Source: Salinisphaera sp. LB1 (GTDB lineage: Bacteria > Pseudomonadota > Gammaproteobacteria > Nevskiales > Salinisphaeraceae). Taken from it: DNA of 64,000 bases. Under the pieces are notes generated by a model. The model did not search any database, was not told the origin of the DNA, and was given only the letters and a program-made list of their open reading frames with translations. The position numbers were made by a program, and so were the translations under genes. This document shows, one piece after another, positions 7,175 through 43,862 of the stretch. Within the stretch, counting starts at the first letter, position 1, and the number at the start of each line of letters is the position of its first letter. The DNA lies in contig NZ_CP029488.1 of NCBI RefSeq assembly GCF_003177035.1, forward strand, positions 2,294,001 through 2,358,000, given 5' to 3'.

Positions 7175-7251
7175 CTTGGTTTGCTGAGCGCAGCTCGACT
7201 TTGGCTTGTTCAGCGGAGCGCTCAACCGGCTTTGGATTGCTCGGCGTGGCT
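7175..7251. repeat. Three imperfect direct repeats upstream of the toxin–antitoxin operon
   Basis: Three diverged copies of a 21–24-base unit, approximately CTTTGGNTTGCTCAGCGNNGCT, start at 7175, 7199 and 7230. They begin just after the SNF2 stop codon and end about 50 bases before the toxin operator palindrome. They could be binding sites for a regulator or a decayed tandem duplication; the sequence alone does not say which. Confidence 0.5.
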
Positions 7252-7304
7252 GCATTTCGGGAGTGCGTGTTGCTTGCTTACGATATTCCAGTCAGTTGCA
7301 TTAT

Positions 7305-7322
7305 TGTAGCTTTAAAGCTACA
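7305..7322. promoter_or_regulatory. Perfect 18-bp palindrome, likely toxin–antitoxin autoregulatory operator
   Basis: TGTAGCTTTAAAGCTACA reads identically on both strands and ends 9 bases before the GTG start of the toxin. It sits in an AT-rich pocket of otherwise GC-rich DNA, where the promoter should be. Antitoxins with a helix-turn-helix domain, such as the one encoded here, commonly bind such dyads with the toxin as co-repressor. Assignment as the operator is inferred from position. Confidence 0.6.
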
Positions 7323-7331
7323 TTTAAATAG

Positions 7332-22624: not shown

Positions 22625-23512
22625 TCAGTGATCGCGTTTGACGATTTCGGCGGCGATCGCGCGCAACGGTTCGGCGTTGTCGAAGATATCCAGCGCGGCG
22701 GTGGCTTCCGTATACAGGCGCTCGGCCAGCGCCTTGGCTGCGTCCAGGCCAAGCAGCGCCGGGTAGGTCGCCTTGTGGTGGGCGATATCCGCGCCCTGGG
22801 TCTTGCCGAGTTTCTCGGTGGATGACTCGATGTCGAGTACATCGTCGCGCACCTGGAAGGCGAGCCCGATGCGGGTGGCGAAGATATCGAGCGCGGTGCG
22901 CTGGTCTGGCGACAGGTTTTCGGCGGCATCCGCGGCCATCATCACACAGGCCGCGAGCAGGGCGCCGGTCTTGAGATCGTGGATCTGTTCCAGGTCGTCG
23001 ATGGTGACGTCGTCGCGCCCCTCGGCGCCCATGTCGAGCACCTGCCCGCCGACCATGCCGCGCGAGCCCACGGCATGTGCGAGCGTCGCGATCTGGGCCG
23101 CGCGCGCGGCGGGCGCATCATCCAGCCCGCCGTGGGTGGCTACGATCTCGAACGCCAGCGACTGCAGGCCGTCGCCGGCGAGGATGGCGGTGGCCTCGTC
23201 GAAGGCGATATGCGTGGTCGGCCGGCCGCGCCGCAGGTCGTCGTCGTCCATGGCCGGCAGGTCGTCGTGGACCAGCGAATAGGCGTGGATGCATTCAATG
23301 GCAACGGCTGCGCCATCGACTTTCGTCATCGGAACGCCCAGCACTTCGGCCGCAGCATAAACCAGCCGCGGGCGTACGCGTTTGCCGGGCGACAGAGCCG
23401 CATAACGCATGGCTTCGTGCAGTCGCGCCGGCGATGTGTCGGCGCCGGGCAGGCACGCGTCAAGCATATGTTCGATGCGTTGGCTATAATATGGTGCTTG
23501 ATATTTATCCAT
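22625..23512 (-). CDS. ispA: Polyprenyl (farnesyl/geranylgeranyl) diphosphate synthase
   Basis: Condenses IPP with allylic diphosphates to make FPP, the precursor of squalene. The 295-aa protein carries both Asp-rich motifs: D-D-L-P-A-M-D-D-D-D-L-R-R-G-R-P-T (first) and F-Q-V-R-D-D-V-L-D (second), with the IspA-type insertion between the Asp pairs of the first. G-K-R-V-R-P-R-L is the IPP-binding basic stretch. IspA normally follows xseB and precedes dxs in gammaproteobacteria; here it stands alone, divergent from the squalene synthase–cyclase fusion and 14 kb from the mevalonate genes, consistent with a role in the hopanoid supply line. Confidence 0.92.
   Translation of the reverse strand: MDKYQAPYYSQRIEHMLDACLPGADTSPARLHEAMRYAALSPGKRVRPRLVYAAAEVLGVPMTKVDGAAVAIECIHAYSLVHDDLPAMDDDDLRRGRPTTHIAFDEATAILAGDGLQSLAFEIVATHGGLDDAPAARAAQIATLAHAVGSRGMVGGQVLDMGAEGRDDVTIDDLEQIHDLKTGALLAACVMMAADAAENLSPDQRTALDIFATRIGLAFQVRDDVLDIESSTEKLGKTQGADIAHHKATYPALLGLDAAKALAERLYTEATAALDIFDNAEPLRAIAAEIVKRDH
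23485..23490 (+). promoter_or_regulatory. Perfect TATAAT hexamer, possible -10 for the squalene synthase–cyclase gene
   Basis: A consensus -10 sequence lies inside the ispA 5' coding region, pointing toward the fusion gene about 195 bases downstream. No convincing -35 is seen at the normal spacing, so it would need an activator or be fortuitous. It would leave the 23535 dyad downstream of the transcription start. Confidence 0.3.
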
Positions 23513-23685: not shown

Positions 23686-26600
23686 ATGTCACAAGCCCCT
23701 ATGCAGACGGATTCCGGTCGGCGCGCGCTGGCCTTTCAGGATGAGATCCTGCCGCATGTTTCGCGCACCTTTGCGTTGACGATACCCGAGCTCCCGGAGG
23801 CACTGCGGGTGGCCGTCGGCAATGCCTACCTGCTGTGCCGTATCGCCGACACCATCGAGGACGATGCCGAGCTCGACTACCAGAGCAAGGCGGCCTGGCA
23901 TGCCGAGTTCGTGCGCGTGGTCGAAACCGGCGAGGGCGGTGCCGACTTCGGCCAGCGTCTGGCGCCGTTGCTGGCGCCGGCCACGCTCGACGCCGAGCGC
24001 CGGCTGGTCGCGCACACGGACGATGTGCTCACCGTGATGCACGGTCTGCGCCCGGCCCAACGGGCCGCGGTCGCGCGCTGTGTGCGCATCATGTGCGACG
24101 GCATGCCGGAATACGAACGCGCTGCGAGCGCCGATGGCCTGCCGACACTGGCGCATCTCGACCGCTACTGCTACTTCGTGGCCGGTGTGGTAGGCGAGAT
24201 GCTCTCCGCGATGTTCACGGATTACGAGCCCGCCATGGGCGAGCATGATGCCGAGCTGAACCGGTTGGCCGTATCCTTCGGCCAGGGTCTGCAGATGACC
24301 AATATACTGAAGGATATCTGGGCCGACCACGGACGCGGTGTGTGCTGGCTGCCGCGCGACGTGTTCGCGCGCCACGGTTTCGATCTGTCGGAACTGGGCA
24401 AGCGCGGTGCCGACGAAGCGTTCGCCGCCGGATTGTACGAATTGATCGGCCTGGCCACCGGGCACCTGCGCAACGCGCTCGAATTCACCCTGCGTATTCC
24501 CGGGCATCAGAAGGGCATGCGTCGCTTCTGCCTGTGGGCGATCGGGCTGGCGCTGCTCACGCTCCGCAAGATCCAGGCGCATCCGTATTTTACCGATGGC
24601 GCGCAGGTCAAGGTTTCGCGTCGCAGCGTGCAGGCGACCGTGCTCACCACGAATCTCGCGGTGGCCGACGACGATCGCCTGCGGCATCTGTTTCATATGA
24701 CCGCGGGCGACCTGCCTGCGCTCACGCCGAAACTGGCGGATGATCCCGCCGCGCCGATCAACGATATCGCCGAACTGCCGCGCCGGTCGCCGGCAACCGC
24801 GACCCGGCCCGCCGGGCTGGACGACGCCATCGAGGCGGCCGAGCAGCGCCTGTTCGCCGACCAGAACCCGGATGGCCACTGGCGCTACGAATGCGAGGCC
24901 GATGGCACGATCCCGGCCGAGTACATCCTGATGATGCATTTCATCGGCGATGTCGATACCGCATTGCAAGCGCGCGTGGCCAACTTCATCCGTTACAAGC
25001 AGGCTGCGCACGGCGGCTGGCCGTTGTACTACGGCGGCGATCTCGATCTGTCGTGTTCGGTGAAGTGCTACTACGCGCTAAAGCTGGCCGGCGACGATGT
25101 GGACGCGCCGCATATGGCGCATGCGCGCGAGGCGATTCTCGCGCGCGGCGGCGCCGGTCAGGTCAACGTGTTCACATTGATCGCGCTGGCCCAGTTCGGC
25201 CAGGTGCCCTGGCGGGCCGTGCCCTTCATTCCGGTGGAGGTCATGCTCATGCCGGAGGCTTCGCCGTTCCATCTGTCGAAGGTCAGCTACTGGTCGCGCA
25301 CGGTGATGGTGCCGTTGTTCATCCTCACCAGCCTGCGCACCATGGCGCGCAACCCGGCCGGGGTGAACATACGCGAACTGTTCACGATTCCGCCCGAGCA
25401 GCAGCGCGATTTCGTGCCCGCGCAGAACGCCTTGCAGCGCGTATTCAAGGGGCTTGATCTGGTCGGGCGGAATTTCGAGCCGCTGATCCCGAAATTCGTG
25501 CGCAAGCAGGCGATTAAAAAAGCCGAGAACTGGATCATCGAGCGCCTGAACGGCACCGATGGCATCGGTGCCATCTTTCCGGCGATGGTCAATGTCTACG
25601 AGGCCCTGGGCGAGCTCGGCTATCCGGCCGATCACCCGTACCGCGCCAACACCCGCCAGGCGATCGACGATCTGGTGTATGACCACGGCGACATGGCCAA
25701 CGTGCAGCCTTGCATGTCGCCGGTCTGGGATACCGGCCTGGCCAGCCTGGCGCTGCAGGAAGCCGCGGGCACGGGCGACACCCCGGTGGTGCGCGCCGGG
25801 CTCGACTGGCTGGCCGCGCGCCAGGTGCTCGACGGCCCCGGCGACTGGCGGCGGGATCATCCGGACCTGCCCGGCGGCGGCTGGCCGTTCCAGTACGCCA
25901 ACGATTACTACCCGGATCTGGACGATACCGCCGTCATCGCCTGGGCGATGGTCAACACCGGCGACGGCGCGACCTATGGCCGTGCGATCACGCGGGCGAC
26001 CAACTGGCTGGTCGGCATGCAGTCGTCGAATGGTGGGATTGCGGCCTTCGATACCGACAACAACCACGAATATCTCAACGAAATCCCGTTCGCCGATCAC
26101 GGCGCGCTGCTCGATCCGCCCACGGCGGACGTCACCGCCCGCGTCATCACGCTGGCCGGCCTGCTGCAGCGGCCCGAGGACCGGCCGTTCATCGAACGCG
26201 CGATGGCCTATCTCCGGCGCGAGCAGGAGGCCGACGGCTCCTGGTTCGGCCGCTGGGGCACGAACTACATCTACGGCACCTGGTCGGTGCTGATGGCGCT
26301 CGAGGCGCTCGGTGAGGACATGAGCCAGGACTGGATCCAGCGTGCCGTGGCCTATCTCAAGGGCATGCAGCGCACCGACGGCAGCTGGGGCGAGGACAAC
26401 GGCACCTACTGGGACCCGCCGCGCGGACGCTCGGATGTTTCCACCAGTTTCCAGACGGCCTGGGCCATGCTCGGTCTGATGGCGGCCGGCGAGCGCGGCT
26501 CGGCGGCACTGGCGCGGGGCGCGGCCTGGCTGATCGACCGGCAGGGCGCGGACGGCGCCTGGCACGATCCGGAGCACACTGCCCCGGGTTTCCCGCGTGT

Positions 26601-26715
26601 GTTTTATCTCAAGTACCACGGTTACACCCGCTACTTCCCGCTCTGGGCATTGGCGCGGTACCGCAATCTGCACGGCGATCCGGCGTCGGATGCCGGCACG
26701 GCGGGTGCCGACTGA
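23686..26715 (+). CDS. Squalene synthase – squalene-hopene cyclase fusion protein
   Basis: One uninterrupted 1,009-aa reading frame joins two consecutive hopanoid enzymes. Residues 1 to about 345 are a squalene synthase: D-T-I-E-D-D at 55–60, Y-F-V-A-G-V-V-G-E at 163–171, and L-Q-M-T-N-I-L-K-D at 202–210 followed by W-L-P-R-D-V-F. It should condense two FPP to squalene. After a polar linker (about 346–378), residues 379–1009 are a complete squalene-hopene cyclase with W-R-Y-E near its start, several Q-W-type repeats (for example G-G-W-P-F-Q, D-G-S-W-G) and the catalytic D-L-D-D at 744–747, equivalent to D374–D377 of the Alicyclobacillus enzyme. Both parts have full family length, so both activities are expected. 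It heads the hpn gene run. Confidence 0.93.
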   Translation: MSQAPMQTDSGRRALAFQDEILPHVSRTFALTIPELPEALRVAVGNAYLLCRIADTIEDDAELDYQSKAAWHAEFVRVVETGEGGADFGQRLAPLLAPATLDAERRLVAHTDDVLTVMHGLRPAQRAAVARCVRIMCDGMPEYERAASADGLPTLAHLDRYCYFVAGVVGEMLSAMFTDYEPAMGEHDAELNRLAVSFGQGLQMTNILKDIWADHGRGVCWLPRDVFARHGFDLSELGKRGADEAFAAGLYELIGLATGHLRNALEFTLRIPGHQKGMRRFCLWAIGLALLTLRKIQAHPYFTDGAQVKVSRRSVQATVLTTNLAVADDDRLRHLFHMTAGDLPALTPKLADDPAAPINDIAELPRRSPATATRPAGLDDAIEAAEQRLFADQNPDGHWRYECEADGTIPAEYILMMHFIGDVDTALQARVANFIRYKQAAHGGWPLYYGGDLDLSCSVKCYYALKLAGDDVDAPHMAHAREAILARGGAGQVNVFTLIALAQFGQVPWRAVPFIPVEVMLMPEASPFHLSKVSYWSRTVMVPLFILTSLRTMARNPAGVNIRELFTIPPEQQRDFVPAQNALQRVFKGLDLVGRNFEPLIPKFVRKQAIKKAENWIIERLNGTDGIGAIFPAMVNVYEALGELGYPADHPYRANTRQAIDDLVYDHGDMANVQPCMSPVWDTGLASLALQEAAGTGDTPVVRAGLDWLAARQVLDGPGDWRRDHPDLPGGGWPFQYANDYYPDLDDTAVIAWAMVNTGDGATYGRAITRATNWLVGMQSSNGGIAAFDTDNNHEYLNEIPFADHGALLDPPTADVTARVITLAGLLQRPEDRPFIERAMAYLRREQEADGSWFGRWGTNYIYGTWSVLMALEALGEDMSQDWIQRAVAYLKGMQRTDGSWGEDNGTYWDPPRGRSDVSTSFQTAWAMLGLMAAGERGSAALARGAAWLIDRQGADGAWHDPEHTAPGFPRVFYLKYHGYTRYFPLWALARYRNLHGDPASDAGTAGAD

Positions 26716-26775
26716 GCCAATGTCTGTCGTTTGTCGTCCAGTAGGGCCGCGCCCTGGCGGGTGCGCCAGGCCCCC

Positions 26776-27504
26776 GTGTTGAGTCTGCCGGTCGCGCAGC
26801 TCGGCATTATCGCGGCGTTGCCGGGCGAGGCCCGTGCCCTGGCGCGGCTGCGTCCGCGTGGGCGTGCGCGCCTGTCCAGCGGCGCGCAGCTCGTGCTGTC
26901 GGGCATGGGCGCCGATCGCGCCGGAGCCGCGGCGCGCCAGCTCGCCGATGACGGTGTCTCGGTGCTGATGAGCTGGGGCACCGCGGCGGCGCTTGCGCCC
27001 GGTATCGATCCGGGCGCGCTGATGCTGGCAACGCGCGTTCTCGGCGCCGACGGTCACGTCTGGCATACCGATGCCGGCTGGCGTGGCGCGCTGGCCGCCG
27101 GTCTGGCGCCCGCGCATCAGGTTTTCGAACAGCATCTGGTGGAAACGCCGGCGCTGGTTGCCGATGCTGCGGCCAAGCGAGCCCTGTACGAACGCAGCGG
27201 CGCGATTGCCTGCGACATGGAAAGCGCGGCCATCGCGGCGGTTGCGGCCGAACGCGGCCTGGCCTTCGTGAGCGTTCGCGCGATCATCGATGATGCCTCG
27301 ATGGCGTTGCCGCCGGTCGCCCGGGCCGCGATGGACGCCGACGGGCGCCTGCGCCCGGCCGCGCTGCTGGCGGCCCTGGTTGGGCGGCCGGCGTCCATGC
27401 ATGTCCAGCTCCGGGCGTTGAAGAATCTGGCCGTGGCCTTTCGCGCCGCGCGCATGACCCTGGCGGATGTCGCGGCGGTACTTCGCGGCGAGGTGCTCAA
27501 GTGA
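26776..27504 (+). CDS. hpnG: Hopanoid-associated phosphorylase (adenosylhopane nucleosidase), HpnG
   Basis: A 242-aa member of the purine nucleoside phosphorylase/MTA nucleosidase superfamily. HpnG removes adenine from adenosylhopane to give ribosylhopane, the step after HpnH. Features seen: G-I-I-A-A-L-P-G-E-A-R-A-L at the start, S-W-G-T-A-A-A-L-A-P-G-I-D-P-G, the base/ribose-binding C-D-M-E-S-A-A-I-A-A-V-A, and R-A-I-I-D-D-A-S-M-A-L-P. GTG 26776 (or TTG 26779) gives the usual start. It lies 60 bases after the fusion gene and overlaps hpnN by four bases. Confidence 0.88.
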   Translation: MLSLPVAQLGIIAALPGEARALARLRPRGRARLSSGAQLVLSGMGADRAGAAARQLADDGVSVLMSWGTAAALAPGIDPGALMLATRVLGADGHVWHTDAGWRGALAAGLAPAHQVFEQHLVETPALVADAAAKRALYERSGAIACDMESAAIAAVAAERGLAFVSVRAIIDDASMALPPVARAAMDADGRLRPAALLAALVGRPASMHVQLRALKNLAVAFRAARMTLADVAAVLRGEVLK

Positions 27505-30122
27505 CGCGTGCACTGGAACGGGCGCTGGCGGCCTGGGTCGAACTGATGACACGCCACGCCGCCTGGGTCGTTCTGGCCGGCGTCGTCATCACGCTGGCCG
27601 GGGCCTGGTATTCGGTCACCCATCTGTCGATGGACACCGATAACGGCAATCTGATCAGCAGTAAAGTGCCCTGGCGCCAGACCCACATCGCGTACAACAA
27701 GGCGTTTCCGGTCTACAAGGACAACCTGGTGGTGGTGGTCGACGGCTCGACCCCGGACATCGCCGGGGCGGCGGCCGACCAGTTGACGAAGGCGCTGCGT
27801 GGCCAGCCGTCGCTGTTTGCCGATGTGTACGAGCCCGGCGGCGGCCATTTCTTCGCGAAGAACGGGTTTCTCTATCTTTCGGTGGACAAGCTCAAGTCGC
27901 TGTCGACCCGGCTGACCCGGATCCAGCCGTTTCTCGGGCGCCTGTCGGCCGATCCGACGCTGCCGACGTTCTTCGACATGCTCGACCGCGCCATGGCTCC
28001 GGATGCCCCGGTCGACATGAATCTGTCGCCGGTTTTCAGCGAGCTGGCCGCCACCTTCGATGCCAGCCGTGCCGGGCACTATAATCGGCTGTCCTGGCAG
28101 CAGCTCATCGGCGGCGACCAGCCGGGTGTTTCCAGCCAGCGCTTCATCATCGTGCGGCCCAAGCTCAACTACGGTGCCTTGCTGCCTGCGCAAAAGCCGA
28201 TGCAGGCGATCCGCGACACCGCCAAGCGGCTGCATCTGGATGCCGCTCATGGCGTGCGGATACGCGAGACCGGCGAGGTCGCGCTCTCCGATGAAGAGCT
28301 GGCCAGTGTGACGCAGGGCGCGGCCTGGGGCGCGACGCTGGCGTTCATCGCGGTGGGCGTGATTCTGTATCTGGGGTTGCGTTCGTGGGCGCTGATGGGC
28401 GCCTCGCTCATCAGCCTGATCGCCGGCCTGGTCGGCACCGCAACGTTCGCGGCACTGGCGGTCGGGCGGTTGAACCTCATTTCGATCGCCTTCGCCGTGC
28501 TCTATATCGGGCTCGGCATCGACTACGCGATTCACGTCTGCCTGCGTTACCGCGAGGCGTTGGCCGAACTCGGCGGGCGCGTGGTCAGTCGGGCCTCGGG
28601 GGTCCGGCATGCCCTGGCCGCGGCCATAGCCGACGTCGGGCTATCGCTCACGCTGTGCGCGATCACGACCGCGGGCGGGTTCTTCGCCTTCATCCCGACG
28701 GCATATTCCGGTGTCGCCGAACTCGGGTTGATCTCCGGCGTGGGGATGTTCATCAGCCTGGTCGTGAGTCTCACGTTCCTGCCGGCGGCCATCGCCTTGC
28801 TCAAACCCTGGGTCCCCAGTTCGAGTGCCACGGCCAGCCGTTGGGCGCCGTTCATCGGGCGTCGGGGCCAGCGCACGATCTGGGTCGCCTCCGCGGTGGT
28901 CGCGCTGGGCTGTGTGGTTGCGTTGCCGTTCATACGCTTCGATCCGAGTACGCTGGATCTGCAGAATCCGAACGACGAGGCGGTGCAGACCTACCGCGAT
29001 CTGCTCGCGCATAGTAAGCATTCGCCGCTGACGCTGGTGACCATGCGTCCGAAGCTGGCCCAGGCCAAGCAGCTGGCGGCTCGCATCGCCAAGCAGCCGC
29101 ATGTCTCCGGTGCGATGACGGTCGCGGATTTCGTGCCTGCGCACCAGGACGCCAAGTTGTCGATCATCGGCGATCTGGCATTGACGCTGGCGGTTTCACC
29201 GCCCGATATGACCAAGCGGGCCGGTTTTTCCGCCCGCAAACAGGCGATCGCCGATTTCGCGCAGCATCTGGCGGCGTATCGCAAGCGCGACAGCAGTTCG
29301 GATGCCGATGCCGCGCAGCGCCTGGCCAAGGCGTTGTCGGCCTGGCGCGGATGGTTTTCACAACAGAGTCCGGCGGCACAGAAGCGTATTCTGGCGACGA
29401 TGCACGATCGCGTACTCGCCGGCCTGCCGCGCCAGGTCGACCGACTGGCCGATGCCATGAACGCGTCACGCATCACCTTGCAGAACTTGCCCGAGAACCT
29501 GAAGAAACGATGGATCGGCACCGGCGGCCAGTATCGGGTGGAGGTCTCGCCCAAGGGCAATCTCAATCACGAATCGACGGTGCGGGCCTTCGTCAACAGC
29601 GTGCGCCAGGTCGCACCGCATATCACCGGGGCGCCGGTGCTCGAACTGTCGGCCGGGCATACCGTATCGCAGGCGTTCGTGCATGCGTTCATCTATGCCG
29701 GGGTGTTCATCACGCTGTTCCTGCTCGTACTGTTGCGCAGTGTGCGCGACACGCTGCGTGTGCTGGCGCCACTGGCCCTGTCGGGGCTGATCCTGGCCGC
29801 GGCGACGGTGGTGTTCGATATCCCGTTCAATTTCGCCAACGTGATCGCGTTGCCGCTGTTGCTCGGTGTGGGGGTGGACAGCGGCATTCACGTGGTCCAT
29901 CGGCTGCGCCAGCGCGAGCACCATCGGCCGTTTCTGGGCACCTCGACCGCGCGCGCCGTCATACTGTCATCCCTGACCACCATGGCCGGCTTCGGCAGTC
30001 TGGCGTTCTCGCATCATGCGGGTACTGCGAGTATGGGACAGTTGCTCACGATCGGTATGCTGGCGGTTCTGGTGACAACCCTTATTGTCGCGCCAGCGCT
30101 TTTTCGTATCCTGCGGGATTAA
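27501..30122 (+). CDS. hpnN: Hopanoid transporter HpnN (RND/MMPL superfamily)
   Basis: An 873-aa inner-membrane protein of the hopanoid-associated RND family, required in Rhodopseudomonas and Burkholderia relatives to move hopanoids to the outer membrane. It begins with one transmembrane helix and a long periplasmic loop. A helix cluster follows with L-I-S-L-I-A-G-L-V-G-T and the conserved Y-I-G-L-G-I-D-Y-A-I-H-V, then a second periplasmic loop and a second cluster with L-G-V-G-V-D-S-G-I-H-V-V-H, the repeated Asp motif of RND pumps. The GTG start overlaps the hpnG stop. Confidence 0.92.
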   Translation: MTRALERALAAWVELMTRHAAWVVLAGVVITLAGAWYSVTHLSMDTDNGNLISSKVPWRQTHIAYNKAFPVYKDNLVVVVDGSTPDIAGAAADQLTKALRGQPSLFADVYEPGGGHFFAKNGFLYLSVDKLKSLSTRLTRIQPFLGRLSADPTLPTFFDMLDRAMAPDAPVDMNLSPVFSELAATFDASRAGHYNRLSWQQLIGGDQPGVSSQRFIIVRPKLNYGALLPAQKPMQAIRDTAKRLHLDAAHGVRIRETGEVALSDEELASVTQGAAWGATLAFIAVGVILYLGLRSWALMGASLISLIAGLVGTATFAALAVGRLNLISIAFAVLYIGLGIDYAIHVCLRYREALAELGGRVVSRASGVRHALAAAIADVGLSLTLCAITTAGGFFAFIPTAYSGVAELGLISGVGMFISLVVSLTFLPAAIALLKPWVPSSSATASRWAPFIGRRGQRTIWVASAVVALGCVVALPFIRFDPSTLDLQNPNDEAVQTYRDLLAHSKHSPLTLVTMRPKLAQAKQLAARIAKQPHVSGAMTVADFVPAHQDAKLSIIGDLALTLAVSPPDMTKRAGFSARKQAIADFAQHLAAYRKRDSSSDADAAQRLAKALSAWRGWFSQQSPAAQKRILATMHDRVLAGLPRQVDRLADAMNASRITLQNLPENLKKRWIGTGGQYRVEVSPKGNLNHESTVRAFVNSVRQVAPHITGAPVLELSAGHTVSQAFVHAFIYAGVFITLFLLVLLRSVRDTLRVLAPLALSGLILAAATVVFDIPFNFANVIALPLLLGVGVDSGIHVVHRLRQREHHRPFLGTSTARAVILSSLTTMAGFGSLAFSHHAGTASMGQLLTIGMLAVLVTTLIVAPALFRILRD

Positions 30123-30464: not shown

Positions 30465-31466
30465 ATGCGCGCCCTGGTAACCGGAGCTACGGGATTCGTC
30501 GGCAGTGCGGTCGCACGCGCTGCGCTGCGCGAGGGTTGGACCGTGCGCGCCACGCGCCGTGCGACCAGCGATCTGAGCGCGCTGGAAGGGCTCGACCTGG
30601 AATATGCCGAGGTCGATCTGTCGGATACGGCGGCCCTGGCCGAGGCCATGCGCGACTGCGACGCGGTGTTTCACGTCGCCGCGGACTATCGCCTGTGGGC
30701 CGCCAATCCGGACGAGCTCTACGAAAACAATGTCGAGGGGACCCGCCGGATCTGCGAGGCGGTGCGTATGGCCGGCGTGGCGCGCGTGGTTTATACCTCG
30801 AGCGTGGCGACACTCGGCATCCCCGGCGACGGCACGCCGGGCGATGAAGACACGCCGGTGGGCTTGCAGGACATGATCGGGCACTACAAGCGGTCCAAGT
30901 ACCTGGCCGAGGAAGTCGCCCGTGAATACGCCGCCGATGGGCTGGATATCGTGATCGTGAATCCGTCGGCACCGATCGGCCCGCGCGATCACAAACCCAC
31001 GCCGACCGGGCAGATGGTGCTTGAGGCCGCGGCCGGCCGTATGCCGGCGTTCGTGGACACCGGCCTGAACGTAGCCCACGTCGATGACGTGGCGCGCGGA
31101 CATTTACTGGCGCATGCCCATGGCCGGACCGGCCGGCGCTATGTGCTGGGGGGTACCGACATGACGCTGGCGGCGATTCTGGCGTTGGTGGCCGAGATCG
31201 TGGATCGCCCGCCGCCGCGCGTGAAGCTGCCACACAATCTGCTGTTGCCCGTGGCCCACGTCGCCGAAGCACTCGCCCGCATCACCGGCCGGCCGCCGAA
31301 GGTGACGGTTGACGGTGTCAAGCTGGCCAAGAAGCGCATGTTCTTTTCCCATGCGCGCGCCACTGCGGAACTCGGCTATCGTGCACGGCCGGCGCGCGAC
31401 GCGTTGGCCGATGCCGTGGCCTGGTATTACGCGCATCGCTACCTGCCGCTCGGGAAACGGCCGTGA
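30465..31466 (+). CDS. hpnA: Hopanoid-associated sugar epimerase HpnA
   Basis: A 333-aa NAD(P)-dependent extended short-chain dehydrogenase/epimerase. It has the Rossmann motif V-T-G-A-T-G-F-V-G-S-A-V at residues 5–16, F-H-V-A-A-D-Y-R-L-W (typical of the HpnA group), Y-T-S-S-V-A-T-L-G-I, and the Y-x-x-x-K catalytic pair in H-Y-K-R-S-K-Y-L-A-E-E. HpnA is found in hopanoid loci and is thought to act on the sugar or head-group side of extended hopanoids; its substrate is not settled. A strong ribosome-binding site (AAGGAGGG) lies about 8 bases before the ATG. Its stop overlaps the next gene's GTG. Confidence 0.9.
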   Translation: MRALVTGATGFVGSAVARAALREGWTVRATRRATSDLSALEGLDLEYAEVDLSDTAALAEAMRDCDAVFHVAADYRLWAANPDELYENNVEGTRRICEAVRMAGVARVVYTSSVATLGIPGDGTPGDEDTPVGLQDMIGHYKRSKYLAEEVAREYAADGLDIVIVNPSAPIGPRDHKPTPTGQMVLEAAAGRMPAFVDTGLNVAHVDDVARGHLLAHAHGRTGRRYVLGGTDMTLAAILALVAEIVDRPPPRVKLPHNLLLPVAHVAEALARITGRPPKVTVDGVKLAKKRMFFSHARATAELGYRARPARDALADAVAWYYAHRYLPLGKRP

Positions 31467-33922: not shown

Positions 33923-35065
33923 ATGGCAGTACCGTTGATTCAACAGTACAAGGTCGCGCGCTACATCATGGGGCAGAAGATCGCCCGACGTGAACGCTAC
34001 CCGCTGGTGCTGATGCTGGAGCCCCTGTTCCAGTGCAACCTCGCTTGCGCCGGCTGCGGCAAGATCGACCACCCGAAGGATATCCTCAAGCAGCGCATGA
34101 GCGTCGAGGATGCCTTGAACGCGGTCGACGAATGCGGCGCGCCCATGGTTTCGATCCCGGGCGGTGAGCCGTTGATCCACAAGGATATGCCCGAGATCAT
34201 CAAGGGCATCGTGGCGCGCAAGAAATTCGTCTATCTGTGCACCAACGCGCTCCTGATGAAGAAGAAGATGGACGACTACGATCCGTCGCCCTACTTCACC
34301 TGGTCGGTGCATCTGGATGGTCTCAAGGCGCGCCACGACGAGTCCGTGTGCCAGGAAGGCGTGTTCGAAAAGGCCGTGGAGGCCATCGAAATGGCGCGGG
34401 ATCGCGGTTTCCGCGTCACGATCAACTGCACGCTGTTCGACGGTGAAGTGCCGGAAGAGGTCGCCGACTTCTTCGACTATGTCACCGATCTCGGCGTGGA
34501 AGGCATTACCGTCTCGCCGGGCTATTCCTACGAGCACGCGCCGCGTCAGGACGTGTTCCTCGGCCGCTCCAAGGCCAAGAACCTGTTCCGCGAGATCTTC
34601 CGCCACGGCCGTGAACGCGGCGCCGACTGGAAACTCAACCATTCGTCGTTGTACCTGGACTTCCTGGCCGGCAACGAGACCTATCAGTGCACGCCCTGGT
34701 CGAACGTAACCTACAACATCTTCGGTTGGCAGAAACCCTGTTACCTGCTGGTCGACGAAGGTTACGAGAAGACCTTCAAGGACCTGATGGAAAACACCGA
34801 ATGGGAGAATTACGGGGTCGGCCGCAATCCCAAGTGCGACAACTGCATGGCGCACTGCGGCTATGAAGGCACGGCGGTCGAGGACACGTTCGCGCATCCG
34901 CTGAAGGCGTTCAAGAGCATGGCCCGCGGTCCGCGCCTGTCGGGCGACTTCGCCGAGGAGCTACCGATTCTGTATGGCGACCGCGCGCAGGCCACGGCGA
35001 CCAAGATCCCGATCTCGCAGATCGGCCGCCGCGAGTCGACGCCGAAGGAAAAGGAACTCGGCTAG
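33923..35065 (+). CDS. hpnH: Adenosyl-hopene transferase HpnH (radical SAM)
   Basis: A 380-aa radical SAM enzyme that attaches the 5'-deoxyadenosyl group to diploptene, the first side-chain step of extended hopanoids. It has the cluster motif C-N-L-A-C-A-G-C (C-x3-C-x2-C) at about residues 37–44, I-P-G-G-E-P-L, W-S-V-H-L-D-G, and a C-terminal C-D-N-C-M-A-H-C-G-Y-E-G that may be a second metal or structural site. The N-terminal V-P-L-I-Q-Q-Y-K-V-A-R-Y-I is highly typical of HpnH. AAGAGG lies 8–9 bases before the ATG. An intrinsic terminator follows, so hpnH may be a single-gene transcript. Confidence 0.94.
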   Translation: MAVPLIQQYKVARYIMGQKIARRERYPLVLMLEPLFQCNLACAGCGKIDHPKDILKQRMSVEDALNAVDECGAPMVSIPGGEPLIHKDMPEIIKGIVARKKFVYLCTNALLMKKKMDDYDPSPYFTWSVHLDGLKARHDESVCQEGVFEKAVEAIEMARDRGFRVTINCTLFDGEVPEEVADFFDYVTDLGVEGITVSPGYSYEHAPRQDVFLGRSKAKNLFREIFRHGRERGADWKLNHSSLYLDFLAGNETYQCTPWSNVTYNIFGWQKPCYLLVDEGYEKTFKDLMENTEWENYGVGRNPKCDNCMAHCGYEGTAVEDTFAHPLKAFKSMARGPRLSGDFAEELPILYGDRAQATATKIPISQIGRRESTPKEKELG

Positions 35066-35089
35066 CGCCGGGCCCGCCTTCGCCTTTGC

Positions 35090-35121
35090 AAGGTCGTCGG
35101 TTGCGCCGACGGCCTTTTTTT
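35090..35121 (+). terminator. Intrinsic terminator after hpnH
   Basis: The stem AAGGTCGTCGG pairs with CCGACGGCCTT (one G·T pair) around a TTGCG loop and runs into eight T residues. It lies between the hpnH stop and the hpnB start, so hpnB needs read-through or its own promoter. Confidence 0.85.
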
Positions 35122-35133
35122 GTATCCGACGTT

Positions 35134-36255
35134 ATGCTGCTGACCCTTCTTGCCCTGATTTCCCTGATCGTCTGGCTCGGCCTGCTGGCCCAGCCCTGGC
35201 TGCCCTGGTTGCTGCGCGAGCGCTTCGCGGCGCGGGCAAGCGACGCCGATACGGCCGATCTGTCGGACGTGACGGTGCTGATCCCGGCGCGCGACGAAGC
35301 CGAATCGCTGGAACGAACGTTGGCGGCGCTCGCCCGTCAGGGCGCCGGACTTTCGGTGATCGTGGTCGATGACAATTCCAGCGACGGCACGGCCGAGATC
35401 GCACGGGCCGCGGCGATTGAGCGGCTGACCGTCATCCAGGGGCGAGCGTTGCCCGATGGCTGGACCGGCAAACTCTGGGCGCTGGAGCAGGCGCGCCAGC
35501 AGGTGAGCACGCCGCGTGTCGTATTACTGGATGCTGATATCTGGATTGCGCCGGGCACGATCGCCGGGCTCAAGGCGAAGGCGATCGCCGAGGATCGCCA
35601 GATGGTGTCGTTGATGGCGCATCTGCGCATGACCCGCATCGTCGAGCGGTTGCTGATCCCGGCGTTCATTTACTTCTTCAAGCTATTGTATCCGTTCGCG
35701 CTTTCCAATCGCGGCTCGCGTCATGTGGCGGCAGCCGCCGGTGGCTGCGTATTGATCGACGCCGCGGTACTGGAGCGCATCGGTGGCTTCGGTGCGCTGG
35801 CCGATGCCGTGATCGACGACTGTACGCTGGCCCGTTGTGTGCGTCGCGCCGGTGGACGCACATGGGTCGGGGTCACCCATGCCGCCACGAGTCTGCGCGG
35901 CTACGACGACTTCGCGGGCATTCATGCGATGGTGGCGCGTTCGGCCTATAGCCAATTGCGCTATTCGCCTTGGCTTCTGGCCGGCTGCACGCTGGCCATG
36001 GCGTTGATGTTCTGGGCCCCGCCCGTTGCGCTCGTTTTCGGTGATGCGAGCGCACGCGGGCTGGCGATCGCGGCCTGGTTCGCGATGGCAGTGAGCTATC
36101 TCCCGACGCTGATCTATTACCGCTTGTCTTGGCTTTGGGCATTCGCCATGCCGTTGATCGGCACCATTTATCTGGCGATGACCTGGTCATCGGCGCTGCG
36201 CTACTGGCAAGGCGTGCGCACCGCCTGGCGCGGTCGTGCCTATCATCGCTCGTGA
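35134..36255 (+). CDS. hpnB: Hopanoid-associated glycosyltransferase HpnB
   Basis: A 373-aa membrane-bound family 2 glycosyltransferase. An N-terminal transmembrane helix (L-L-A-L-I-S-L-I-V-W-L-G-L-L) is followed by the GT-A domain with V-L-I-P-A-R-D-E-A, V-I-V-V-D-D-N-S-S-D-G-T and L-L-D-A-D-I-W (D-x-D), and ends with several transmembrane helices (about 280–350). HpnB occurs in many hopanoid clusters and is presumed to modify the hopanoid head group; acceptor and sugar are unproven. ATG 35134 is used because the only upstream in-frame start lies within the hpnH terminator. Confidence 0.88.
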   Translation: MLLTLLALISLIVWLGLLAQPWLPWLLRERFAARASDADTADLSDVTVLIPARDEAESLERTLAALARQGAGLSVIVVDDNSSDGTAEIARAAAIERLTVIQGRALPDGWTGKLWALEQARQQVSTPRVVLLDADIWIAPGTIAGLKAKAIAEDRQMVSLMAHLRMTRIVERLLIPAFIYFFKLLYPFALSNRGSRHVAAAAGGCVLIDAAVLERIGGFGALADAVIDDCTLARCVRRAGGRTWVGVTHAATSLRGYDDFAGIHAMVARSAYSQLRYSPWLLAGCTLAMALMFWAPPVALVFGDASARGLAIAAWFAMAVSYLPTLIYYRLSWLWAFAMPLIGTIYLAMTWSSALRYWQGVRTAWRGRAYHRS

Positions 36256-36436
36256 TGATCGGCGGCGCGGCCAGCGACTGCAGCGCGTGCCGGCGCTCAG
36301 GGTCGTTTTCGGTATATTCAGGATACATAAAACCGGGCTGCGGTTTAATTTGCTTGATGGGTCGCATGTCGGCCCCATATCGAGGGACGTGCGGCACGAC
36401 ACGGTGCAGCCTGGGATTGAGTCAAGGAAGCCGAGA

Positions 36437-37078
36437 ATGAAAGCAGCGACGCGTTTATTGCGAGGTCTGGTGGCCACGGGCGTGATCTTTGCCTGTGTCA
36501 GTGTCTGGACGGCGGCGGCCGCCGAGCCGGCGCGCAGCGTGGTCGAGAATCTAGACAGCCAGTTACTCGCGACCATGAAACAGGGCAAGCAGCTCGGTTT
36601 TGCGGGGCGCTACAAGAAGCTGGCGCCAGTGATCGATCAGTCGTTTGATCTGGACCGCATCGCCAAGCTCGCGCTCGGCAACAAATGGTCCAAGCTCAGC
36701 CCGGAGCAGCAGAAGCAGTATCAGCACATGTTCCGCGAGGACACGCTCGCGACCTATGCGTCGCGTTTCGACAGCTACAGTGGCCAGACCTTCAAGATCA
36801 AGGACGTCAAGAACGCCCCGGGCGGTCGCCGTCAGGTGAATACGGTGATTGTGTCCGGCGGTGACCGGATACCAATCAATTATGTTCTGGACAACGAGGG
36901 CGGCGACTGGAAGATCGTCAACGTCGTGGCCAAGGGGGTCAGCGATTTGGCGCTCAAGCGCGGCCAGTACACCAGTTCCATTCAGGGCAAGGGCGCTGAC
37001 GGCTTCATCAAGCAATTCAAGGCGCAACTCAAGAAATACCCGAGCATCCCCAGCGTGCCGGCGAATTCCAGCACATGA
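36437..37078 (+). CDS. hpnM: Hopanoid-associated periplasmic protein HpnM (MlaC/Ttg2D-like)
   Basis: A 213-aa exported protein of the MlaC/toluene-tolerance Ttg2D family. A signal peptide (L-V-A-T-G-V-I-F-A-C-V-S-V-W-T-A-A-A-A, cleavage near residue 29) precedes a mature domain with F-D-L-D-R-I-A-K-L-A-L-G, W-S-K-L-S-P-E-Q-Q, and V-S-D-L-A-L-K-R-G-Q-Y. MlaC homologues carry lipids across the periplasm, so HpnM probably works with HpnN on hopanoid traffic. ATG 36437 is preceded by AAGGAA. It is the last plus-strand hpn gene, convergent with idi. Confidence 0.88.
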   Translation: MKAATRLLRGLVATGVIFACVSVWTAAAAEPARSVVENLDSQLLATMKQGKQLGFAGRYKKLAPVIDQSFDLDRIAKLALGNKWSKLSPEQQKQYQHMFREDTLATYASRFDSYSGQTFKIKDVKNAPGGRRQVNTVIVSGGDRIPINYVLDNEGGDWKIVNVVAKGVSDLALKRGQYTSSIQGKGADGFIKQFKAQLKKYPSIPSVPANSST

Positions 37079-37174: not shown

Positions 37175-37773
37175 TTAGCCGGACTGACTGTCGCCTGCGA
37201 GCAGTCGAGCCACCGTGGCCCAGTGCGCCTCGCGAATGCGGGGCCATTCCATCTTGATCCACGGTGTGTAACGCTTGGGGTGTGCGGCCAGATCCGCATC
37301 GAGTGCCTCGGGCGCGACGAACGAGAAATCCGCGATTTCGTTCGGGTTGCCGGTGACCGGCGCATCCGAACGGGCGGCGAAGACTGAGCACATCTCGTGT
37401 TCGGCCCCGATGTCGCCGAACTGTGCGTGGTACTCGAACTTGTAGAGATAGGTGACATCCGCGTCGATGCCGATCTCTTCGCGCAACCGCCGCTTGGCGG
37501 CCTCGGCGACGGTTTCGCCGCGACGCGGATGGCTGCACACGCTGTTCGACCAGAAACCGCCCCAGAGCTGCTTGGCGTCGGCCCGCTGCTGCATCAGCAC
37601 GTGGCCTGCGCTGTTGAACAGAAAGATCGAGAACGCGCGATGCAGCACACCGTCGCCAAGATGCGCCTCGGCCTTGGGCATGTGGCCGAGCACGTTGTCG
37701 TCGGAGTCGACCAGGATCAGGGGTTCGTCGTCGAAGGAAACAACGTCGGCGTCGCCGGCATCGATGTTCGTGC

Positions 37774-37777
<4 letters not shown>
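37175..37777 (-). CDS. idi: Isopentenyl-diphosphate delta-isomerase, type 1
   Basis: Interconverts IPP and DMAPP; essential with the mevalonate pathway because that pathway makes only IPP. The 200-aa Nudix-fold protein has H-R-A-F-S-I-F-L-F-N, L-L-W-G-G-F-W-S-N-S-V-C-S-H-P-R-like sequence (active-site Cys and His), the Nudix-like R-R-L-R-E-E-I-G-I, and Y-L-Y-K-F-E-Y-H-A-Q-F followed by E-H-E-M-C. It overlaps the reductase–kinase fusion by four bases (ATGA) and is the last gene of the mevalonate operon. Confidence 0.93.
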
Positions 37778-40068
<2,291 letters not shown>

Positions 40069-40140
40069 GCGAAACGAACCCTCGCGCGGGATGATCCAAG
40101 ACACCGACAGCACATCGATATCGTTGTCTAATACAGTAGT

Positions 40141-41217
40141 TTAGCGCAGCCTGCGTCCGTCTGTCGCAGGCCGTGCCCCGGTTGGCCGGTCCGGCGTGGT
40201 TTCCAGCGCCACCCCGGGGGCCGCGAAACCGAGTTCGATGATTTCGGCGCCGACCGCCTGGAAGTCGCCGCGAAGCGCGGTTTCATCGACGTTGGGCGTG
40301 GTGAACAATAGCCCCACGTCGCCGCCGCCAGCGCCGGAACTCTTGAACACCGCGCCATGATCGGCCGCCGCGGCGTGCAGTTGGTGGTGGCGGGCGCTGA
40401 CGATACCGGCCTCGGCATGCTGGTCCAGTGCGATCAGCGCCTCGAAGTACTCGCGCGCCAGCCGCACGAAGCGCAAGGCCTGGCCGAGGTCCGCCGCCGC
40501 ATTCTCCGCCAGCGCGGCCAGACGGCCGAGATCGGACGCAAAGCCGCTCGGATCGCGTTGGCCGTAGGTGTAGACACGCCCGACCAGGTCGGTGGTGCTT
40601 GCCCCGGTGCCGGTCACCACGGCGACACCGGCCAGCCCCGTGGGCCAGACCAGCGGCGCCGGCGGTTGATCGCGGGTGTAGCTGATGATGCCGCCATAAA
40701 CCGCGGTTGCGACATCGCCGCCGCTGCCAGTGCCGCCCTGGGCATCGCGATGGGCGGCGATGGCCAGTTCGGCCAGCCGGGCAGGCGCCAGCTCGACGCC
40801 GACGCGGGCCAGGAGTGCGCAGGTGAGGGCGGCGGCCACCGCCGCGCTCGAGCCGAGACCGAGCTTGTGCCCGTCGCGCGCGAAATCGGTGGTGTCGATG
40901 TGTACTTCGAGCGGCGGCAATGGCGAATCGAGATAGGCCGCGACATGGGCCAGCACGGCCCGATAGACCCGCAGCCGGTCGCGCAGCCCGTCATCGGCGC
41001 CCGGCGCGCCGTGTCCATCGGCGCCGAGCGCCAGCCGGTGGATGTCCAGATTGGGCGCGGTCAGATGCCAGTGGCCGTCGCTCGAATCGGAGAGCGTGAC
41101 GCGGGCCCGGCGATCGACTGCGGTCAGGATCGCCGGTGCGCCTTCGAGCACGGCATATTCGCCGATCAGGAACAGCTTGCCCGGCGCACTCGCGATAACC
41201 GGGGCCGTTGCGGTCAT
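40141..41217 (-). CDS. Phosphomevalonate kinase
   Basis: Phosphorylates 5-phosphomevalonate to the diphosphate. The 358-aa GHMP kinase has A-S-A-P-G-K-L-F-L-I-G-E-Y-A-V-L-E-G at the N-terminus (the E-Y rather than E-H is typical of phosphomevalonate kinases), K-L-G-L-G-S-S-A-A-V-A-A-A-L in the centre and G-A-G-G-G-D-V-G-L near the C-terminus. The start at 41217 overlaps the mvaD stop by four bases. Order mvaD, this gene, the reductase–kinase fusion and idi matches a co-transcribed mevalonate operon; 72 bases separate it from the fusion. Confidence 0.9.
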   Translation of the reverse strand: MTATAPVIASAPGKLFLIGEYAVLEGAPAILTAVDRRARVTLSDSSDGHWHLTAPNLDIHRLALGADGHGAPGADDGLRDRLRVYRAVLAHVAAYLDSPLPPLEVHIDTTDFARDGHKLGLGSSAAVAAALTCALLARVGVELAPARLAELAIAAHRDAQGGTGSGGDVATAVYGGIISYTRDQPPAPLVWPTGLAGVAVVTGTGASTTDLVGRVYTYGQRDPSGFASDLGRLAALAENAAADLGQALRFVRLAREYFEALIALDQHAEAGIVSARHHQLHAAAADHGAVFKSSGAGGGDVGLLFTTPNVDETALRGDFQAVGAEIIELGFAAPGVALETTPDRPTGARPATDGRRLR

Positions 41218-42185
41218 GCGAGCACGCTCGCTGCCGGGCCCAGGGCTGTTCGACGGGTTTCCAGCACACCGGGTACACGCGCCAGCGCCCGCGCCACCGC
41301 CTCGCCATGGCCGGGTGCGCACAGGGCCTTGACCTGCGGCCCGGCGTCGATCGTGAAGTAGACCGGGGTGCCGGCCTCGCGCAGGGCCCGCACGGCCTGC
41401 ATGGCCGCCACGGTGGCGGGGTTCCAGTAGATCAGTCCCGGCCGGGTCGACATCATCAATCCGTGCAGCTTGAGACAGCTCATTTCCGTAAGTGCGCCGA
41501 CGGTCTCGAAGTCGCGCGCGGCGATGGCGTCGCGCATGGCGCTCAGGTCGGTTTCCGAATGCGCCACCCAGGCCGAATAGTAATCGGAACGTTGGTCGAG
41601 GTGGCTCATGCCGATCGAGGAGTTGACCGACTTCGTGGCCCGATCGGTGATCGCGACGACGATCTCCAGCGGCCACTCGCCGGGATCGAGCATGGACTCG
41701 GCGAAAGCATCGCTGCCGTCGTCGAGTTCGCCGCGGTGCATTTCGGCAAAACCGCCGAAGACCGAGCGCGCCGCCGAGCCCGAGCCCTGGCGCGCCAGGA
41801 TCGATAGTTCGCGCGGGGACAGCGCAAGCCCCGCGGCCCGGGTCGCAGCCAGCGACAGCGCTGCGAACCCCGAGGCGGACGAGGCGAGACCGGCCCCGGT
41901 GGGGAAATTGTTGGCCGAGACGATCGCCGCGCGCGTGTCGATTCCGGCGCGCGCGCGCACCAGATCGAGAAACGGCGTCAGGCGCGCGGTGTCGACGGGT
42001 TTTTTATCGAGCTCGGCGGTGTCGGCCGCCAGCGCCTCATCGAACACGACGGTGGTATCGGTGTACAGGCCGTCGAGCGTGACCGATATGGATCCAACCG
42101 CCGGCAAATTGCGCGGCCCTGCGCGCTTGCCCCAGTACTTGATCAGCGCGATATTGCTGTGGGCGCGCGCAGTGGCTTGGCTCAT
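41214..42185 (-). CDS. mvaD: Diphosphomevalonate decarboxylase
   Basis: ATP-dependent decarboxylation of mevalonate diphosphate to IPP. The 323-aa GHMP enzyme has A-H-S-N-I-A-L-I-K-Y-W-G-K-R at the N-terminus, F-P-T-G-A-G-L-A-S-S-A-S-G-F-A-A-L, A-R-Q-G-S-G-S-A-A-R-S-V-F-G-G-F, and Y-F-T-I-D-A-G-P-Q-V-K with the catalytic Asp region. ATG 42185 matches the family start M-x-x-A-T-A-R-A-H; ATG 42200 would add five residues. It is the first gene of the minus-strand mevalonate operon and divergent from HMG-CoA synthase across about 170 bases. Confidence 0.92.
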   Translation of the reverse strand: MSQATARAHSNIALIKYWGKRAGPRNLPAVGSISVTLDGLYTDTTVVFDEALAADTAELDKKPVDTARLTPFLDLVRARAGIDTRAAIVSANNFPTGAGLASSASGFAALSLAATRAAGLALSPRELSILARQGSGSAARSVFGGFAEMHRGELDDGSDAFAESMLDPGEWPLEIVVAITDRATKSVNSSIGMSHLDQRSDYYSAWVAHSETDLSAMRDAIAARDFETVGALTEMSCLKLHGLMMSTRPGLIYWNPATVAAMQAVRALREAGTPVYFTIDAGPQVKALCAPGHGEAVARALARVPGVLETRRTALGPAASVLA

Positions 42186-42353
42186 GATCGATTCTGCCAT
42201 CGGCTTTTACAGGAACAATTCGCGCGCAAGGATACGCCATCGTCATCGGTCTGCCGAGTGTGATGCGCTTGCACAGTGCACCATTTGCTAGCATATCCCT
42301 GACGAAAAATTCACGTGGCACGCATAGCGGGCCGCCGGACGACGAGAAAAACC

Positions 42354-43862
42354 ATGCCGGGAATCAGTGGACTGGCGCTTTATCTGCCGCCTTATCGTGT
42401 CAACCTTGAGGACTGGTGCGCCTGGAACGACCAGCCCTGGGACAAAGTGCGCAAGGTCGTGGGCCGCAGCTTTCGCATGCGGGGGCCGGAGCAGAGCGTG
42501 TACACGCTTGCCGCGAATGCCGCCTGGCGCCTGATCGAAGCCTACGACATCGATCCGCGCGAGATCGGGTATCTCGCGCTCGGCACCGAGTCCTCCAGCG
42601 ATAACTCGGCTGGCGCGGTGATCGTCAAGGGGATGCTCGACGACGCGCTGGCTACGCACGCGTTGCCCGCCATGTCACGCGAATGCGAAGTGCCGGAATT
42701 CAAGCATGCCTGTCTCGGCGGTGTCTATGCGATGAAGAATGCCTTGCGCTATCTGGCCACCGACGGCGCAGCACGCAAGGCGATCGTGGTCTGTTCCGAT
42801 ATCGCCGAATACGAGCGCGGCTCATCCGGTGAGCCGACCCAGGGCGCCGGTGCGGTGGCCATGCTGCTCGAAGCCGAGCCGAAGCTGCTGCACGTCGATC
42901 TGGCCGGCTCGGGCAGCGCCTCCGATTACCGCATGGTCGATTTCCGCAAGCCGTTTGCCCGCTTCCGCGGGCAGCCACAGCGTGCCGATGGCCAGATGCA
43001 GGATCTGCCGGTGTTCAACGGCCGTTATTCGACCAGTTGCTACGTCGATGCCACCCGGGCCGCGATCAACGCCATGCTCGCGCGCCGTGGTGGCGGCCGG
43101 CGGGCCGATTTCTTTCATTCGGTGGATGCCGTGTTCATGCATCGACCATATCACCGCATGCCCTCGGCGGGCTGGGCCATGGCCTATCTGTTCGCCCTGG
43201 CCGACGGTGACGACGCCAATCGTGCCGAGCTGACCGAATATGCCAGGGGCGCCGGTATCGACGCCGAGGCGCTGCTGGCCGAGATCTCCGGTGTGACGCC
43301 CGACATGCGGGCCCGCGTCGCCGCCGGCGAGTCGGGCGAGGATGCGTTCCCGTTGGCCGGCAACCTGATGCGGTATCTGCGCAAGACCGAGCTGTGGCAG
43401 AACCTGGTTTCCGGCAAGCTCTCCCTCGGCAGTGAGATGATGCGCGACCTGGGCAATCTCTATACCGCTGCGCTGCCCGCCTGGCTGGCCGCCGGGTTCA
43501 CCCAGGCCCACCGCGACACGCTCAATCTTGGCGGGCAGCACTGGCTGGCGCTGGGCTACGGCAGCGGCGACGCCGCCGAAGCATTGCCGATGCGTGTGGC
43601 CGAAGGCTGGGAGGACGCCGCGGCGCGCATCAACTTTACCGAGGCGCTGGGCACACCGGTGGAGCTCGATGCCGACCAGTACGCCGCGCTCCACGATGGC
43701 CACCCGGCCGACGTCAAGCCGGCGCCGGCCAGCGACGAGTTCGTGGTCGATCGCATCGGCGAAACCGATCGCCCGGATTTCCACGATCTGGGGATCGAGT
43801 ACTACCGCTACGTGCCGGCGGCCCAACAGGCCGGCGCCGCTGCGAAGAAAGCGGTTGGCTGA
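42354..43862 (+). CDS. Hydroxymethylglutaryl-CoA synthase
   Basis: Condenses acetoacetyl-CoA and acetyl-CoA to HMG-CoA, the entry to the mevalonate pathway. The 502-aa thiolase-superfamily enzyme has L-Y-L-P-P-Y-R-V near the start, G-T-E-S-S-S-D with catalytic E79, E-F-K-H-A-C-L-G-G-V with acyl-forming C120, and F-M-H-R-P-Y-H-R-M-P with the active-site His. At 502 aa it is longer than the roughly 390-aa Gram-positive enzymes and nearer the eukaryotic and myxobacterial size, with a long C-terminal tail ending in an Ala-rich stretch. No acetoacetyl-CoA thiolase is linked. Divergent from mvaD; an intrinsic terminator follows. Confidence 0.92.
   Translation: MPGISGLALYLPPYRVNLEDWCAWNDQPWDKVRKVVGRSFRMRGPEQSVYTLAANAAWRLIEAYDIDPREIGYLALGTESSSDNSAGAVIVKGMLDDALATHALPAMSRECEVPEFKHACLGGVYAMKNALRYLATDGAARKAIVVCSDIAEYERGSSGEPTQGAGAVAMLLEAEPKLLHVDLAGSGSASDYRMVDFRKPFARFRGQPQRADGQMQDLPVFNGRYSTSCYVDATRAAINAMLARRGGGRRADFFHSVDAVFMHRPYHRMPSAGWAMAYLFALADGDDANRAELTEYARGAGIDAEALLAEISGVTPDMRARVAAGESGEDAFPLAGNLMRYLRKTELWQNLVSGKLSLGSEMMRDLGNLYTAALPAWLAAGFTQAHRDTLNLGGQHWLALGYGSGDAAEALPMRVAEGWEDAAARINFTEALGTPVELDADQYAALHDGHPADVKPAPASDEFVVDRIGETDRPDFHDLGIEYYRYVPAAQQAGAAAKKAVG

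Follow-up and report, generated by a model that had tools for sequence, protein, structure and literature searches.

A conserved fusion of a squalene-synthase-type protein and a squalene-hopene cyclase in Salinisphaeraceae

Introduction

Squalene hardly dissolves in water, and to our knowledge it is not settled how it is transferred from the synthase to the cyclase in bacteria. The closest known counterpart of the cyclase considered here is Shc/HpnF of Alicyclobacillus acidocaldarius (1SQC). It shares the fold (Foldseek TMt 0.95, 37% identity) and the DxDD acid with the C-terminal half of our protein, which differs in bearing an N-terminal synthase. At the place of what we take to be H451 of the Alicyclobacillus enzyme the fused protein carries R819, and an arginine is also found there in 47 of 52 split relatives. 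Squalene synthases such as human FDFT1 (3VJA/1EZF) and the split bacterial Sqs have the fold, the two Asp-rich motifs and the NADPH-side residues in common with the N-terminal half, but they are unfused. The HpnC/D route requires HpnE. Eukaryotic squalene synthase has a hydrophobic C-terminal anchor, which is lacking in the fused synthase half. In other Gammaproteobacteria, adjacent sqs-shc(-hpnG) genes show the same order and strand and 46-63% identity per half; unlike in the fused gene, the aligned halves are separated by one or more stop codons and 71-343 nt.

Natural fusions of related enzymes have been described. In the fungal CrtYB/CarRA proteins, lycopene cyclase and phytoene synthase form one chain; as in the fused enzyme, chain-making and cyclising terpene domains are thereby joined, although the families and products are others. 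Fungal chimeric triterpene synthases also unite chain-making and cyclising, but they belong to other families, form other products and reportedly bypass squalene (PMC9177416). The diatom protein PtIDISQS is a natural IDI-squalene synthase fusion and thus likewise joins squalene synthase to an isoprenoid enzyme; its partner is one acting several steps upstream, the host is a eukaryote and no cyclase is included (PMC12168105). Passages of a further paper concern HpnCDE in another genus (PMC9062700), and the main text of PMC12583986 does not mention a fusion, squalene synthase or Salinisphaera. A preliminary description of the present locus knew of no described enzyme of this form. In line with this, no natural squalene synthase-hopene cyclase fusion is described in the titles and abstract openings of the open-access papers listed, which is a weak indication of novelty. 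The gene appears to join two known enzymes in a new way; the arrangement is conserved in one family and was probably reached more than once.

Gene and domain architecture

The window, that is, the whole stretch of 64,000 nucleotides of Salinisphaera sp. LB1 DNA that was analysed, contains the fused gene at 23686..26715 on the + strand. It consists of a single uninterrupted frame (1009 codons, 1009 aa) that runs from the ATG at 23686 to the stop codon ending at 26715. The longest stop-free runs in the remaining five frames over this region measure 102-545 codons, and the GC content across the gene is 0.667. The SQS_PSY domain (PF00494) covers residues 23-313 (23752..24624, +) with 188.9 bits against a gathering cut-off of 26 and is matched over profile positions 2-262 of 263. 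The cyclase domain (residues 382-994; 24829..26667, +) consists of SQHop_cyclase_N at 382-667 (388 bits) and SQHop_cyclase_C at 677-994 (433 bits), both with nearly full Pfam profiles. Between the aligned halves lies a linker of 32 residues (346-377; 24721..24816, +). The motifs DTIEDD, TNILKD and DLDD begin at residues 55, 205 and 744, respectively. The preliminary description had proposed an unbroken frame, two full-length halves, intact catalytic motifs at these places and a linker of about 30 residues, and all of this was borne out.

A stop or frameshift near residues 345-380, named there as a finding that would refute the fusion, was looked for. The frame is unbroken in 10 of the 17 genomes of the family, that of strain LB1 among them, at 71-100% identity, which excludes a sequencing error in this region and rules out an assembly or frameshift artefact. 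The fused gene is real and conserved, and the finding is wider than had been stated before.

Assignment of the two halves

To assign the halves, they were compared with curated models. The C-terminal half reaches the squalene-hopene cyclase model TIGR01507 with 780.3 bits (cut-off 431.1), and the cyclase residues D744, D746 and D747 are identical in all 13 fused rows. Judged by its sequence and fold, with the DxDD general acid (DLDD, 744-747) and the cyclase fold both present, this half is a squalene-hopene cyclase.

The N-terminal half does not reach the squalene synthase equivalog model TIGR01559, to which the whole protein scores 104.8 and the synthase half 108.4 bits (cut-off 286.75). The synthase halves of three further fused proteins (G053, G042 and G030) are also below this cut-off with 111.9, 120.9 and 122.5 bits. 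Even so, the squalene synthase model outscores the other named ones on this half (HpnD 88.7, CrtB 46.2); with the whole protein, HpnD (84.3 of 278.6) and HpnC (40.2 of 250.45) both remain below cut-off. Because the best model is under its cut-off, we file the half as a member of the SQS/PSY superfamily that probably works as a squalene synthase. Among solved structures, those nearest to it in sequence are squalene synthases. All 13 fused rows share D55, E58, D59, Y161, N206, D210, D214, F281 and K309, and 12 of them also R312, whereas F164, V776 and R982 are variable among the positions examined; within the SQS_PSY domain, the Asp-rich motifs (55-60 and 205-214) and K309/R312 were followed in 65 rows. 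Both F281 and the VK-SR stretch have aligned counterparts in the human and related enzymes. We take F281 to correspond to F288 of human squalene synthase, and K309/R312 are presumably the Lys/Arg on the NADPH side. A hydrophobic C-terminal anchor was not found in the synthase half: the best 19-residue hydropathy mean over residues 290-381 is 0.45.

HpnE was above cut-off in none of 16 genomes, including all 13 with a fused gene, and also in none of 14 controls, so the sensitivity of this search is not demonstrated; some first-look candidates were left unscored, and weak matches to related oxidoreductases did appear. As no HpnE reached the cut-off in any genome with a fused gene, squalene is probably formed by the synthase half itself.

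The genome of strain LB1, a single contig of 4.14 Mb, holds a single further SQS_PSY gene besides the fused one. It is part of a gene group at 1315-7398 of locus L114 (G000:C1, within 1345000-1352500), beside genes for a polyprenyl synthase, a crtI-family desaturase, a lycopene cyclase, a beta-carotene dioxygenase and a rhodopsin. Model scores fail to separate CrtB from HpnD for this gene. Because of the adjoining carotenoid and rhodopsin genes it most likely serves retinal, and the region is a probable retinal/rhodopsin cluster.

Predicted structure and linker

A structure prediction, as suggested in the preliminary description, was made with AlphaFold2 for the monomer, using an alignment of 82 rows. 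The model has a mean pLDDT of 90.4 and a pTM of 0.70, with residues 361-370 below 50. It predicts two well-folded, confident domains on a loose, disordered tether, without a confident placement relative to each other. In Foldseek, the synthase half matches human squalene synthase with TMt up to 0.80. The monomer model shows no tunnel; docking within a dimer may nonetheless be compatible with it.

The linker is 30-38 residues long in Salinisphaeraceae and 34, 77 and 81 residues in the other fused lineages, and linker sequences differ between the separate lineages. Its first part, LTPxLxxxPGAPI-like, is similar across two genera. Among eight genomes of the genus, pN/pS is 0.25 for the synthase (residues 20-340), 0.49 for residues 341-381 and 0.19 for the cyclase. 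By this measure change is faster in the linker than in the two domains, yet the linker is under some protein-level constraint. With one conserved frame and a linker so constrained, the gene may encode a natural bifunctional terpene enzyme, in which the catalytic domains of consecutive steps share one translated chain.

Distribution of the fused gene

The taxonomic spread, which the preliminary description had proposed to map, was searched in 85 genomes of the order (presumably all), in 369 from the class and in 398 from the phylum, the last two sets drawn evenly from larger groups. A repeat search of the class, apparently over almost the same 369 genomes, gave no further fused gene. Frames were then read in 118 loci within Pseudomonadota, which include most, though not all, of the places showing both halves side by side. 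Both halves, always on one strand, are present in 65 non-duplicate loci, the other tested loci being duplicates or having at most one half. Of these, 13 are fused and 52 are split adjacent pairs with sqs before shc and 71-343 nt between the aligned ends. In some genomes, e.g. G404, G295 and G174, sqs and shc lie apart.

Ten of the fused genes belong to Salinisphaeraceae (family f1) and are spread over two genera without an internal stop; the others are G053, G030 and G042 (family f4, same order). The arrangement is therefore not a curiosity of one strain. Within Salinisphaeraceae, the gene is fused in 10 of the 10 genomes with a cyclase match. No cyclase match was found in the other seven of the 17 genomes (G001, G006, G007, G008, G010, G012 and G014), although in two of them, G010 and G012, the synthase half alone is weakly matched. 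Six of the seven are in the same genus, and six are at least 97% complete. This pattern makes it probable that some members of the family have lost the ability to make hopanoids. Six named loci match the synthase half at 78-92% identity, the nearest being S. hydrothermalis C41B8; four are Salinisphaera isolates or bins, one is a TPA Salinisphaera bin and one is a bin labelled Lysobacterales.

Several other candidates were rejected. Equal open-frame lengths of the two halves had indicated many further fusions, but when the DNA frames were read only G030 and G042 proved fused, while e.g. G223, G328 and G813 are split. As these two became visible only in this way, further genomes may hide more. 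The rows of G289, G316 and G035 span both halves with one or two in-frame TGA codons and are split adjacent genes, and G758 has separate frames. Of three Cupriavidus megaplasmid records with matches across both halves, the two whose frames were read (H1, H3) have a 287-aa upstream frame separate from the cyclase frame and were discarded; by eye only, this upstream frame is HpnD-like. On the megaplasmid of C. campinensis (L120, 4406-6487), a stop appears to divide the cyclase gene into frames of 263 and 429 aa, for which a pseudogene or a sequencing error may be responsible.

Phylogeny

A gene tree was built from both halves without linkers; it comes from a quick search, has long branches and is rooted at the midpoint. 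The ten Salinisphaeraceae rows form one clade with a support of 100. Four changes between the fused and the split state are needed, likewise when starred branches alone are counted. On this tree, one shared origin of all 13 fused genes is rejected by these four changes and by the test of their forced monophyly (AU p 8.9e-144). The linkers of G030 and G042 (77 and 81 residues) resemble each other, but a clade of these two alone is rejected (p 2.3e-4) because the split G040 sits beside G030; as the tested groups were named after the tree had been seen, the p-values of both clade tests are too strong.

With this tree and the differing linkers, the simplest reading is at least three fusions, namely in Salinisphaeraceae, in G053 and in the G030/G042 group. 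Formally, the fusion could also be old and have been split several times since. In the G030/G042 group, the data fit a single gain plus a split as well as they fit two gains. The split G040 (L070) nests beside the fused G030 (L062) with a support of 99 and is possibly the result of a recent splitting of a fused gene. Families f1 and f4 are of the same order and do not group together on the gene tree, so gene transfer is also possible.

Proposed function and alternative readings

We consider it likely that the gene encodes a bifunctional enzyme leading from FPP to hopene, in which a flexible linker couples the two steps by proximity, and that it arose when the stop codon separating neighbouring sqs and shc genes disappeared. 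Judging by its family, its residues and the HpnE search, the N-terminal half would condense two FPP to presqualene diphosphate and reduce this to squalene with NADPH. Squalene would be released at the membrane and then enter the cyclase half, which is tethered to the synthase and bound to the membrane; as expected for its family, this half would protonate squalene with the DxDD acid to give hopene. The linker of about 32 residues would keep the synthase, otherwise soluble, close to the cyclase and the membrane and set a 1:1 ratio of the two activities. The gene tree and the frames suggest that other lineages of the order lost the stop codon independently. The hopene formed would feed HpnH and the downstream hopanoid genes. 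For the fused enzyme, neither an enzyme assay nor a Salinisphaera lipid analysis was found in the literature.

Two alternatives concern what the fusion is good for. It might be nearly neutral, a tolerated stop-codon loss between neighbours that brings no kinetic benefit. The same-order adjacent pair is common, although some genomes have the genes apart; chance stops are rare at this GC content, and a split gene is nested beside a fused one. On the other hand, the fusion is kept in all ten family genomes with a cyclase, over two genera, and the linker is constrained at the protein level. We regard neutrality as a serious contender that nevertheless has the balance against it. At the other extreme, squalene could be truly channelled: the domains would dock, either within a chain or between the partners of a cyclase dimer, and squalene would pass from the pocket of the synthase to the entrance of the cyclase without mixing with membrane squalene. 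The probable repeated fusion of the same adjacent pair hints at an advantage beyond co-expression, and the start of the linker is alike in two genera. However, no fixed arrangement is predicted for the monomer, whose linker is disordered, and the linkers of separate lineages differ in length and sequence; channelling, the reasonable idea put forward in the preliminary description, appears unlikely to us. Proximity coupling is favoured over a rigid tunnel by the predicted model, in which both domains are well folded but the tether is disordered. That the fusions, at least three in number, were driven by a real hand-over of squalene, with a soluble synthase kept at the membrane cyclase and free squalene kept out of the membrane, is a tentative idea that we rate slightly above channelling in the strict sense.

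Two further alternatives concern the products. The protein might be cut after translation, or the cyclase could also be started internally, in which case two ordinary enzymes would act. An in-frame ATG at the codon of residue 338 occurs in 9 of 10 Salinisphaeraceae rows, where split synthases usually have a residue other than methionine. Moreover, at least one in-frame ATG, GTG or TTG lies inside the linker in 11 of 13 fused rows, which counts against a single full-length product; a separate start of the cyclase could result. The window's row is not among these 11: between codon 339 and the cyclase core at 378 it has none of the three, although it does contain CTG codons. In this row, no Shine-Dalgarno-like stretch was seen by eye before the ATG at 338, and across the fused rows the start-like codons of the linker share no common position. 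We judge two separate enzymes to be improbable. The frequency of start-like codons in the linker and the HpnE search without a positive control weigh slightly towards this reading and, by as little, against the single bifunctional enzyme. Finally, the synthase half might make a product other than squalene, with the cyclase using that product or squalene from elsewhere. The score below the curated squalene synthase cut-off would allow this, but the ranking of the named models, the conserved NADPH-side K/R, the HpnE search (within the limit given above) and the nearest solved relatives all speak for squalene, and another product is highly improbable.

The apparently repeated joining of the same neighbours suggests that coupling of the two steps may be useful. 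Repeated fusions together with split sister proteins would make the question of squalene transfer directly testable, and if channelling were true, they would be a natural experiment on the hand-over of a water-insoluble intermediate. For engineering, a bifunctional enzyme would offer one gene that could make hopene from FPP. The fused gene is also an easily scored marker of hopanoid capacity in Salinisphaeraceae, and automatic annotation may report just one of its two functions.

Gene neighbourhood

The fused gene lies among hopanoid genes. Its divergent neighbour encodes a farnesyl diphosphate synthase (22625..23512, -; NF045485 334 bits, cut-off 275), which would supply FPP. Directly downstream are an HpnG-like phosphorylase (26731..27504, +) that is below cut-off (TIGR03468 157.8 bits, cut-off 187.1) and the hopanoid transporter HpnN (27501..30122, +; TIGR03480 953.7 bits, cut-off 751.85), followed by HpnA (30465..31466, +; TIGR03466 469 bits, cut-off 367.65). 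A phosphonopyruvate-decarboxylase-type protein (32255-33409, +; TIGR03297 416.8 bits, cut-off 312.5) stands between hpnA and hpnH. The adenosyl-hopene transferase HpnH (33923..35065, +; TIGR03470 549.5 bits, cut-off 225), an enzyme that uses hopene, is followed by HpnB (35086..36255, +; TIGR03469 396 bits, cut-off 379) and HpnM (36236..37078, +; TIGR03481 202.8 bits, cut-off 160). Gene order was examined in 12 of the 52 split loci: an hpnG match is next to the pair in 12 of 12 and an hpnA match lies further downstream in nine. The order pair, hpnG, hpnA is that found at the fused gene.

A set of mevalonate-pathway genes (37175-43862) adjoins the hopanoid genes in this gammaproteobacterium. It comprises isopentenyl-diphosphate isomerase (37175..37777, -; TIGR02150 150 bits, cut-off 105.8), a 779-aa HMG-CoA reductase fused in frame to mevalonate kinase (37774..40113, -; TIGR00532 and TIGR00549 over cut-off), a phosphomevalonate-kinase-like protein (40141-41676; below the NCBIfam cut-off), diphosphomevalonate decarboxylase (41214..42200, -; TIGR01240 261 bits, cut-off 171) and an HMG-CoA-synthase-like protein (42315..43862, +) that is below cut-off (TIGR01835 159.9 bits, cut-off 360). 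The HMG-CoA reductase-mevalonate kinase gene is the second fused pair of the locus. Of the 85 genomes searched in the order, 34 have matches over both of its halves, including 17 of 17 of the family and thus the cyclase-less members. A 35th row, G039, is cut by a contig end, and three of the 34 rows (G001, G030 and G053) count one internal stop.
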